Part shown: positions 49,790 through 53,578 of the stretch, piece by piece
Numbering within the stretch: position 1 is the stretch's first letter
Layout of the letters: each line of letters opens with the position of its first letter
DNA from: an uncultured Pelagibacteraceae bacterium
Lineage (GTDB): Bacteria; Pseudomonadota; Alphaproteobacteria; Pelagibacterales; Pelagibacteraceae
Length of the DNA stretch: 64,000 nt
Reading direction: 5' to 3'
Assembly (NCBI GenBank): GCA_902619835.1
Contig: CACNFS010000005.1
Span: forward strand, 1 to 64,000
Made by a program: the position numbers and the translations under genes
Notes under the pieces: model-generated
The model's database searches: none
The model's input: the letters and a program-made list of their open reading frames with translations, nothing else
Told to the model about the DNA's origin: nothing

Positions 49790-50797
49790 ATGTGGAGAAG
49801 TTTTTTCAGAGATAAAAAATGGTTTTATTGGTCCTACGGCGGAGGTTTTTTTATTATTTCTTTGCTTGTGCTGCAAACCTATTTAGATGTTCTATTCAAC
49901 AGTTGGTACAAGGATTTTTATGATATTCTACAAACAGCCGAAAAACGTGAGATATCAGAGTTTTGGGAATCAATTAAAAGGTTTTTATATATAGCACTTC
50001 CATATGTTACACTTTTTGCTTTTACTAATTGGTTTACAAGGTTATGGGCATTTAGATGGAGAGAGGCTATGACGTTTTCGTATATGCCTTATTGGAGAGC
50101 CACTGAGGCAAAAGTAGAGGGCTCATCTCAAAGAATTCAGGAAGACTGCATGAACTTTGCAAAAATTGTTGAGTCAATTGGATTGCAAGTTGTTAAAGCT
50201 ATTATGACATTAATAGCATTCATACCAATTTTATGGGTTCTTTCTTCAAATGTTACTATACCTTTTTTAAACAATGTATCCGGATCTTTAGTATGGGTAG
50301 CGCTTACCCTCAGCTTAGGTGGAATACTTATTAGTTGGCTAGTTGGAATAAAATTACCTGGTCTCGAATATAACAATCAAAAGGTCGAAGCTGCATTTAG
50401 AAAAGAATTAGTTTACGGTGAGGATGACAGAAAAAATTATGTTCAAGCTCCTACGATTTTACAATTATTTACTGGAATAAAATTCAATTACCATAAATTA
50501 TTTTTACACTACGGATATTTTGATTTATGGGCTATTTGGTACAGACAATTATTTGTAATTGTACCATTTTTAATAATGGCACCAGGATTGTTTACTGCAG
50601 CGTTCACTTTGGGTATTATGATGCAAGTAGTAAATGCATTTGGAGAGGTAAAAGACGCTTTTTCTGTATTTCTATATAATTGGACAAGAATTACTGAACT
50701 AAGATCAATACATAAGCGATTAATGGAGTTCGAAACGGCTATTAATTATAACACTAATAAGTTGAGAAAGCCTAGAAAATCTGATGTAAGAGTTTAA
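49790..50797 (+). CDS. SbmA/BacA-like family transporter
   Basis: 335 aa; NSWYKDFYDILQTA, WFTRLWAFRWREAMTFSYMPYWR, GSSQRIQEDCMNFAKIVE. Confidence 0.85.
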   Translation: MWRSFFRDKKWFYWSYGGGFFIISLLVLQTYLDVLFNSWYKDFYDILQTAEKREISEFWESIKRFLYIALPYVTLFAFTNWFTRLWAFRWREAMTFSYMPYWRATEAKVEGSSQRIQEDCMNFAKIVESIGLQVVKAIMTLIAFIPILWVLSSNVTIPFLNNVSGSLVWVALTLSLGGILISWLVGIKLPGLEYNNQKVEAAFRKELVYGEDDRKNYVQAPTILQLFTGIKFNYHKLFLHYGYFDLWAIWYRQLFVIVPFLIMAPGLFTAAFTLGIMMQVVNAFGEVKDAFSVFLYNWTRITELRSIHKRLMEFETAINYNTNKLRKPRKSDVRV

Positions 50798-51696
50798 TGG
50801 AACTCTATATCAAACTGATAGACGTCATACTTCCGGTATTTTTTGTAATTGGAATAGGCTATTACCTTGGAAAAAAAGATCCAAATTTTAATACCGATTT
50901 TATAACTACATTGGCTGGTAACGTTGGTACCCCTGCAATGATTTTTTACACTATTACTTCAACAGGCGTAACTTTAGAAACATTTATGGAATATTTTTCA
51001 TATGCATTAATTATAATAGGCGGTTTTGCTGTAATAGGTTTAATTGTTCTTGCTTTAATGAAAAAGGACTTTGTAAGTGAACTTCCTCCTTTAATATTAC
51101 CAAATACTGGTAATATGGGTATACCAATTTGCTTATTTGCTTATGGTACAGAGGGTTTAGGTATAGCCTCAGCTATAGCATCAGTAATTATCTTGCTTCA
51201 CTTCACACTAGGGGTTCTTTTAGCAAAAAAGAGTTTTTCACTGAAAATATTAATTACTAATATGCCTATTTACGGGATAATAGCGGCTGTGATTGTTTTA
51301 TATTATGATTTGCAGGTCCCTGGTTATGTAGTTAATACCACGTTTTTATTAACCTACGCTACAATATTTCTAGTACTCATGTCCTTAGGAATAGCATTGA
51401 CAAAATTAAAAGTAGTATCATGGTTAAATGCATCTATTTTAAGTGGCGTAAGAATTATTATTGGTCCCTTAATTGGATTTAGTTTAATTAAATATCTAAA
51501 TCTTAGTGGATTAGCAGCTGGAGTGCTTTTAATTCAATCTGCAATGCCAAGTGCAATTTTAACTTATTTAGTGGGCTCTATGTATTCAGAGAAAAGGGTA
51601 GTCGATAGTATTGCTAGCGTTATAGTTACTTCCACACTAATGTCATTTATTACTATCCCGTTTGTTGTTTATCTAAGTCTTAAATATTTTCAATAA
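50797..51696 (+). CDS. AEC (auxin efflux carrier) family transporter
   Basis: 299 aa; multi-TM; PLILPNTGNMGIPICLFAYG, QSAMPSAILTYLVGSMY. Confidence 0.87.
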   Translation: MELYIKLIDVILPVFFVIGIGYYLGKKDPNFNTDFITTLAGNVGTPAMIFYTITSTGVTLETFMEYFSYALIIIGGFAVIGLIVLALMKKDFVSELPPLILPNTGNMGIPICLFAYGTEGLGIASAIASVIILLHFTLGVLLAKKSFSLKILITNMPIYGIIAAVIVLYYDLQVPGYVVNTTFLLTYATIFLVLMSLGIALTKLKVVSWLNASILSGVRIIIGPLIGFSLIKYLNLSGLAAGVLLIQSAMPSAILTYLVGSMYSEKRVVDSIASVIVTSTLMSFITIPFVVYLSLKYFQ

Positions 51697-52106
51697 ATAC
51701 AATAACTTACGTTAAATAATTAAAGCAATATATCAGGTAATAAGTAAGTATTACTTACATATAAAGAGGATAATCCACGTATACATTGAAAAATTACACT
51801 CTAGTAAAAAAAAATCAAAGATTAATAAAAAAAAAGCATTTAAAATTAGTGTTTTAATAAGAAAAAAGACAAAATTTGAATAATGACAGGTCAAAAAACA
51901 TTGAAAATATGGTGTTATAAAGCAATTTACTAGTGTTAGTAATCAACAATTCTACAAGCTTTGCGTTTATTGAATATGCCATTTAAACGGCCATAGAGGG
52001 TGTTTTTTTTGCAATCATTGGTTTCTGAGTACAACTCACTGTTGTGTGGATAAAAAAAACAATGAAATAGGGGCCAATAGACCCGATCGCCCGTCAAATA
52101 ACAATT
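51697..52106. other. 410-bp non-coding island between convergent genes
   Basis: No ORF in track; contains GTAAGTA-T-TACTTAC (51744-51758) and TTACTA-GTGT-TAGTAA (51927-51942). Confidence 0.7.
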
Positions 52107-52382
52107 CTAGAGCTTAATACCCTCTTTTTTAAGCAGAAATCTCTTAGTTTTTATACCTCCTCTTCCTGAATAGCCGCCGAGCGTTCCGTCAGATCTTATT
52201 ACTCTATGACAAGGTATTTTGGGCGCAAAGGGGTTTTTTCCTATAGCATTAGCTACAGCACGTGCAGCAAGAGGTTTTCCAATGGCTTTTGCCACTTGAG
52301 AGTAGGTTTTAACGCTTCCACGAGGTATTTTCCTTAAATAAGCCCATACTTTAAGCTGAAATTTAGTACCTGTTAGCCTCAT
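52107..52382 (-). CDS. Minimal methylated-DNA--protein cysteine methyltransferase (MGMT/ATL C-terminal domain)
   Basis: 91 aa; active site PCHRVI, GGYSGRGGIKTKRFLLKKEG. Confidence 0.9.
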   Translation of the reverse strand: MRLTGTKFQLKVWAYLRKIPRGSVKTYSQVAKAIGKPLAARAVANAIGKNPFAPKIPCHRVIRSDGTLGGYSGRGGIKTKRFLLKKEGIKL

Positions 52383-52582
52383 TAGTCAAATAATAAGTAA
52401 ATTGTTAAAGATATTCCTAATAATACGCCAACTATTAAGCCTATAGCTATCATTTTTTTGCCCTTTGAACTCGAGTTGGTCCAGAAGTACGAGATTCCGT
52501 AAACCGCAACTATAAATACTACTATAGGAAGAATAAATTTAATCATGACTAAGAAATTATATCTATTGACATCTAAAATCAC
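52382..52582 (-). CDS. Small two-TM hypothetical protein
   Basis: 66 aa; two hydrophobic segments; abuts the MGMT gene on the same strand; likely start is an internal ATG. Confidence 0.5.
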   Translation of the reverse strand: MILDVNRYNFLVMIKFILPIVVFIVAVYGISYFWTNSSSKGKKMIAIGLIVGVLLGISLTIYLLFD

Positions 52583-52597
52583 TTAATATATTACTAA

Positions 52598-52616
52598 TGA
52601 TAATTAATTGTTATCA
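52598..52616 (+). promoter_or_regulatory. Inverted repeat TGATAA-N7-TTATCA between promoter-like TTGACA and recombinase ATG
   Basis: TGATAATTAATTGTTATCA; TTGACA at 52566-52571; ATG at 52625. Confidence 0.5.
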
Positions 52617-52624
52617 ATAATAAT

Positions 52625-53578
52625 ATGAATGAATTAGTTACAAATCTAAAAAAGCTTCATGAGGATACTTTAAACAACCTCAAGTTATCTAAGTCCAATA
52701 ACACGTTAAGAGCTTATAAATCGGACTTTAAAGACTTCGGTGAATTTTGCGCTAAACATGGACTTAGTTCAATGCCAACAGAACCTAAGATTGTATCGTT
52801 ATATCTTACCCATCTCTCTACAAGCTCAAAAATGAGCACTTTGAGACGTAGGCTTGTATCTATCGGAGTAGTTCATAAACTTAAAGGTCATTATTTAGAT
52901 ACAAAACACCCGGTTATTATTGAAAATTTGATGGGAATTAAAAGAAAAAAAGGAAGCATTCAAACAGGAAAAAAACCATTATTAATCAATCACTTAAAAA
53001 AAATAATTAATGTAATTGACGAACAAAAAATTGAAAAAATTAAAAAACTTAGAAATAGAACATTAATACTTATAGGTTTTGGTGGAGGCTTTAGACGTAC
53101 GGAATTAATTTCTATTGACTACGAGGACTTAGATTTTGTTGAAGAAGGTGTAAAAATAACATTAAGAAGATCTAAAACAGATCAGTTTGGAGAAGGTCTT
53201 GTAAAAGGTTTGCCCTACTTCACTAATGAAAAATATTGTCCAGTTACTAGTCTAAAAAATTGGATAAACTTATCACAAATAAAAACCGGACCAATATTCA
53301 GAAGATTTGCTAAAGGGGCGATACTAACAGGACACAGATTAACCGATCAATCTGTAGTATTAATCATAAAAAATTATTTAAAACTTGTAGGAATAGAGAG
53401 TCAAAATTATTCGGGTCATAGTTTAAGATCAGGTTTTGCGACAGTTGCAGCAGAGTCCGGTGCAGATGAAAGAAGTATAATGGCTATGACAGGACATAAA
53501 ACTACTCAAATGGTAAGAAGATATATTAAAGAAGCAAATATATTCAAAAATAACGCACTTAATAAAATAAAGTTATAA
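52625..53578 (+). CDS. Tyrosine recombinase/site-specific integrase
   Basis: 317 aa; GGGFRRTELISI, HSLRSGFAT, GHKTTQMVRRYI catalytic R-HxxR-H-Y set; SAM-like N-terminal domain. Confidence 0.93.
   Translation: MNELVTNLKKLHEDTLNNLKLSKSNNTLRAYKSDFKDFGEFCAKHGLSSMPTEPKIVSLYLTHLSTSSKMSTLRRRLVSIGVVHKLKGHYLDTKHPVIIENLMGIKRKKGSIQTGKKPLLINHLKKIINVIDEQKIEKIKKLRNRTLILIGFGGGFRRTELISIDYEDLDFVEEGVKITLRRSKTDQFGEGLVKGLPYFTNEKYCPVTSLKNWINLSQIKTGPIFRRFAKGAILTGHRLTDQSVVLIIKNYLKLVGIESQNYSGHSLRSGFATVAAESGADERSIMAMTGHKTTQMVRRYIKEANIFKNNALNKIKL

Follow-up and report, generated by a model that had tools for sequence, protein, structure and literature searches.

The 410-bp non-coding island between two convergent genes of this SAR11 genome is probably the left flank of the replication terminus, combining a cis-acting DNA element with an adjoining dif/Xer module that has a single recombinase. 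The strength given to this joint best explanation is a compromise over its parts: the terminus is close to certain, the dif/Xer module very likely, and the element reading of the island's core somewhat favoured. Unless another genome or record is named, positions refer to the window, the whole stretch of 64,000 nucleotides that was analysed. SAR11 are the most abundant bacteria of the ocean and rank with the most numerous cells on the planet. If true, the module would explain how they resolve chromosome dimers despite the reported absence of dif/Xer, and an intergenic island that had no explanation becomes, within a strongly streamlined genome, a terminus element that can be tested.

The island and the replication terminus

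A recheck of the window confirmed the gap of 410 bp between two 3' ends, together with its flanking genes:

50797-51696, plus strand: Mem_trans transporter gene, left of the island
51697-52106, no strand assigned: the island, 410 bp, intergenic, syntenic in the genus
52086-52111, plus strand: genus-specific conserved block ATCGCCCGTCAAATAACAATTCTAGA, which overlaps the MGMT stop codon and is absent from other genera
52107-52382, minus strand: gene for an MGMT DNA-binding domain, 91 aa, with a PCHR motif, right of the core (PF01035, E 4e-34)

The original prediction had set this gap against the tight convergent junctions elsewhere in the window, and all seven that it cited were found again at -8 to +8 nt. 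A length of 410 nt is exceptional because the published median intergenic spacer in Ca. P. ubique is 3 nt (PMC5069961). Within the genus, the length of the island is mostly constant. Its right end had been described as relatively GC-rich; indeed, GC content was 18-24% in the left half and reached 38-39% in the right half. The AT-rich left half (about 51790-51930) could hardly be aligned even among members of the genus. The imperfect palindrome GCC-N-TTTAAA-N-GGC was located at 51978-51991, and no conservation was found for the island's short inverted repeats other than this TTTAAA dyad. A possible small hairpin (GGGUC..GACCC in locus L002) lies downstream of MGMT, in the region of the genus-specific block (52070-52111).

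The locus is almost certainly the SAR11 replication terminus, since the cumulative GC-skew maximum lay near it in every assembly tested. The distance between maximum and locus was about 1-4 kb in the window, in two further genomes with long contigs (G021 and G034) and in the complete genome of HTCC1062. In the latter, the global skew maximum was at 995,998, the repeat described below at 998,842 and the core of the island at 999,917-1,000,006. Furthermore, sampled blocks of genome G063 showed a change of skew sign at the locus. The single-contig genomes of the family (f1) presumably include those of Ca. P. ubique HTCC1062, HIMB5, HTCC7211, HIMB114 and IMCC9063. A DnaA box (TTATCCACA) is present on the minus strand at 52045-52053 inside the island, and only part of the genus has it. 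This box and the AT-rich stretch had suggested an origin of replication, which was rejected on the loss of the box in part of the genus and on a GC skew that is at its maximum, not its minimum.

A lone recombinase, its candidate dif site and phage copies

To the right of the MGMT gene, the locus continues as follows:

52382-52582, minus strand: ORF of 66 aa, the variable gene between MGMT and the recombinase
52566-52571, plus strand: TTGACA, a -35-like box that closely precedes the repeat, common to nearly all loci
52593-52621, plus strand: dif candidate of type A, ACTAATGATAA-TTAATTG-TTATCAATAAT, with arms of 11 bp (52593-52603 and 52611-52621) and a centre of 7 bp (52604-52610), directly upstream of the recombinase start
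52625-53578, plus strand: lone Xer-like tyrosine recombinase, 317 aa, type A (PF00589, E 3e-20)

The tyrosine recombinase that the original prediction had placed about 0.5 kb from the island is at that position, and the inverted repeat begins 487 bp to the right of the island. The variable slot between MGMT and the recombinase holds an acetyltransferase-like gene in HTCC1062. We consider it highly likely that the repeat and the lone recombinase constitute the SAR11 dif/Xer, a candidate single-recombinase module. As in such systems, most Pelagibacteraceae genomes carry one Xer-like recombinase, at this locus, and no XerC/XerD pair; the tyrosine recombinase catalytic residues are intact (R157, K184, H265, R268, H291 and Y300, all invariant in the lone recombinase); and an intergenic inverted repeat of about 30 bp lies near the GC-skew maximum.

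Eight genomes of the genus each had one PF00589 protein at this locus, and two of them carried one extra elsewhere. Among the 40 family genomes that were at least 96% complete, PF00589 matched once in 30, two or three times in seven and not at all in three, none of which is a single-contig assembly. Draft family genomes without a match were G003, G004, G011, G016, G018, G019, G022 and G024, and further G026, G029-G031, G035, G062, G066 and G067; most of them are incomplete. Second tyrosine recombinases of 355-464 aa were seen away from the terminus locus (G034:C1:250569, G010:C4:79199 and G076:C1:676679), and these are possibly derived from mobile elements. Among named genomes, the best 80 loci with a recombinase homologue all belonged to Pelagibacteraceae single-cell genomes, which places the window in SAR11. 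The lone recombinase scored only 69.6 bits on the XerC model (TIGR02224, cut-off 335), 73.8 bits on the XerD model (TIGR02225, cut-off 330) and 47.6 bits on the XerS family (NF003462, cut-off 267), and was far below the cut-off of the XerA model. Genomes of the sister family (f2) encode the ordinary XerC and XerD, most of them with two matches, and f2 proteins scored 314.7 and 316.3 bits on the XerC and XerD models (cut-offs 335 and 330).

In each of the 131 loci whose upstream region could be read, in a listing that shows identical sequences once, the repeat directly precedes the recombinase start codon; it occurs in two types. The recombinases at type A sites (ACTAAYGATAA-TTAATKG-TTATCAATAGT) measure about 317 aa and have an insert around FRRFxKG, whereas those at type B sites (ATTTCCGATAA-TTAATGG-TTATCGGAAAT) measure about 305 aa and have no such insert; both arms change in concert between the types. 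An automatic pattern count gave 103 type A sites with the insert and 14 type B sites without; five rows outside this count, which the patterns had missed or whose start was miscalled, were judged by eye to be type A sites with insert-bearing proteins. Both types are found at the same locus inside the window's genus, where the protein tree splits them. The 17-bp heart of the repeat is present in about one copy per family genome and in zero copies in the f2 genomes tested. Recombination at the repeat would fit this match between site type and protein type, which supports it indirectly.

Copies of the repeat were also found in phages. Searched against 50,697 phage records, the repeat ranked the Pelagibacter phages HTVC100P (E 2e-4) and HTVC035P (E 9e-3) at the top, and with type B as the query HTVC106P came first (E 0.04). 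In the intergenic DNA of all three isolates, a repeat resembling type A stands next to one resembling type B; the same arrangement occurs in several IMG/VR contigs picked out by exact match (L297-L299, L302-L304, L306 and L308). The positions of the tandem A-like/B-like repeats in pelagiphages are:

L309, 8004-8060
L310, 8004-8060
L313, 35378-35438

No integrase is annotated in HTVC100P, HTVC035P or HTVC106P, and no PF00589 protein was found in 15 phage or viral records searched whole, a search that a very divergent integrase could escape. The three isolates thereby show the pattern of IMEX-type phages, a dif mimic in non-coding DNA with no integrase of their own found. From these sequences, the integrase-less pelagiphages probably use the host recombinase to integrate and carry both of its specificities.

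The repeat could instead be an operator, because it overlaps what is likely the promoter of that recombinase, just downstream of the -35-like TTGACA. If it were an operator only, the recombinase would be a domesticated integrase with another role, one of those genes that accumulate at the terminus. We find this improbable, as the protein is the sole Xer-like one in nearly all genera of the family, where XerC and XerD are gone. Moreover, operator function leaves unexplained why phages without a recombinase have both repeat types in tandem, which counts against it.

Under the dif/Xer reading, the terminus would be ordered as core element, MGMT gene, variable gene, dif site and lone recombinase gene, with the island as its conserved left flank. 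When sister chromosomes are fused as a dimer, the single recombinase would bind as a homotypic pair on each of the two repeats, probably activated there by FtsK, whose gamma domain is retained in HTCC1062. Strand exchange between the two repeats would then yield two monomers, so that one SAR11 protein would replace XerC and XerD. Some integrase-less pelagiphages probably exploit the same host enzyme for integration through their site mimics.

The conserved core of the island

The 410-bp island is under selection. Its core consists of three blocks at fixed spacing:

51954-52045, plus strand: core element, about 92 bp, single copy (model match G000:C5:51956-52044)
51957-51964, plus strand: core block A (AGC..TGC), in which AGC and TGC carry close to 2 bits per base
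51972-51998, plus strand: core block B, GAATAT-N4-TTTAAA-..CCATAGA, an imperfect dyad around TTTAAA
52029-52036, plus strand: core block C (GTACAACT)

A sequence-only model of the core was searched against 116 genomes of the order and matched 93 of them at E <= 0.01 (90 at E <= 1e-10), with one strong match per genome. The core occurred in four SAR11 genera (g1, g8, g9 and g10), always at the same position. The alignment was nearly gap-free, 98 of 110 distinct sequences across genera having no gap, and GAATAT and TTAA of block B were invariant across 44 diverse sequences. With the same model, no sister family genome gave a match and the clade III genera (g5-g7) gave only a single marginal one. 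In complete P. ubique the core is unique (E 5e-26, next best E > 1). The original prediction had named absence or full degeneration in close relatives as the outcome that would speak against it; the core proved to be conserved across genera. In clade III, the loci L198 and L199 have a hairpin, GCTCAAGAG..ATGGC-TAAATC-GCTATA..CTCTTGAGC, between a DUF502-like gene and the next convergent ORF; this hairpin may correspond to core block B in a short, inverted form. The viral contig L196, which is unrelated, shares an exact 18-mer with the core, a match put down to chance.

In all 127 loci compared, MGMT lay directly to the right of the core and the recombinase farther right. The left neighbour varied (in HTCC1062 it is another transporter-like gene). 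The orientation of the core relative to the recombinase was constant in all loci; its distance from the repeat was 0.44-1.5 kb, with genes in between. The core was found beside both type A and type B recombinases. As it does not change when one type of recombinase and site is replaced by the other, it is not the site on which the recombinase itself acts. The core had itself been considered as the dif site, an idea abandoned for the repeat upstream of the recombinase, which is more widespread and type-matched. Furthermore, the core cannot be essential for recombination, because clade III genera without it keep the recombinase and the repeat. The original proposal of a recombination or att site was thus right about the neighbourhood and wrong about the coordinates, the likely site being the inverted repeat at 52593-52621.

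We lean towards reading the core as a cis-acting DNA element of the terminus region with a predicted host-protein partner, on the grounds of its fixed block spacing, TTTAAA dyad, single copy, constant orientation and position at the terminus. The three blocks, one of them dyadic, would be bound by that protein, and the element most likely acts as DNA rather than RNA. Against a terminus element stands the variable distance between core and repeat, with genes in between, unlike known accessory sequences, which adjoin recombination sites. The tie of the core could also be to MGMT, because MGMT is its constant neighbour.

The main rival to a DNA element is a small RNA, independently transcribed or derived from a 3' UTR, on the MGMT strand or the opposite one. 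The core's patchy conservation with variable spacers would suit such an RNA, as would the constant position downstream of MGMT, at a convergent junction of the sort that can harbour 3'-end RNAs, and the terminator-like hairpin (GGGUC..GACCC) recognised by eye at genus level between MGMT and the core. Action through short base-pairing seeds would also account for the lack of a conserved fold. We nevertheless regard a small RNA as rather unlikely. Rfam gave no match in the island or core; RNAalifold, judged against column shuffles, scored the real alignment no better on either strand (whole-alignment z of -0.3 and +0.1); no conserved promoter was recognised; and the table of a P. ubique structured-RNA survey does not include this intergenic region (PMC2704228). 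The independent ncRNA first suggested for the island is therefore unsupported in structured form. A decayed gene, also among the first suggestions, or a neutral spacer may fit the left half (about 51790-51930), which barely aligns within the genus, and is contradicted for the core: about 90 bases are gap-free over four genera, most of the 110 distinct sequences are interrupted by stops in every frame, and the three codon positions of the core alignment have about the same entropy. As an account of the island we consider it very remote. The same stops and entropy led us to reject a hidden small protein in the core. Two named RNAs were likewise rejected as the identity of the island: tmRNA, which is located elsewhere in the genome, and 6S RNA, as the island lacks any conserved fold. 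6S RNA had no Rfam match in 61 genomes of the order, where it is either lost or too divergent.

Comparison with known systems

A survey of proteobacteria reported Ca. P. ubique to be without a dif/Xer system (PMC2731167), and nothing in the literature searched linked SAR11 or pelagiphages with dif. If true, the module adds a single-recombinase Xer alongside XerS, XerH and XerL. A fuller version is conceivable and put forward tentatively: a dif/Xer class of SAR11's own with two types exchanged between lineages, phages that counter with both, and a core that would be a novel sort of cis element, an accessory or anchoring site for a SAR11 protein, and that stays in place while the module is swapped.

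The module shares with XerC/XerD-dif the tyrosine recombinase fold family, the inner arm ends ATAA...TTAT and the FtsK gamma domain. It differs in having one protein instead of two, which scores 70-74 bits against cut-offs of 330-335, and in a centre that spans 7 bp where that of dif spans 6. IMEX elements and phages (CTXphi, GGI, LME-1) are likewise integrase-less mobile DNA with a dif mimic, whereas pelagiphages, whose integration is putative, carry mimics of two host dif types side by side. These tandem mimics would suggest a route by which integrase-less pelagiphages integrate.

XerL/dif of Legionellales is, by its published description, similar in its single recombinase in a group thought to be Xer-less and in its perfect inverted arms (PMC9765430); its discovery was led by a mobile element carrying a dif mimic (PMC9765430). 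The SAR11 dif adjoins the recombinase gene, whereas the two are more than 400 kb apart in Legionella (PMC9765430). XerS/difSL of streptococci and lactococci and XerH/difH of Helicobacter and Campylobacter also rely on one recombinase, whose gene adjoins dif close to the GC-skew maximum (PMC2731167). In contrast to these, the SAR11 repeat is unrelated in sequence and arms, and its arms are perfect or near-perfect; its recombinase, at about 305-318 aa, falls short of their length of about 355 aa and scores far under the XerS cut-off; and SAR11 has two specificity types within one genus.
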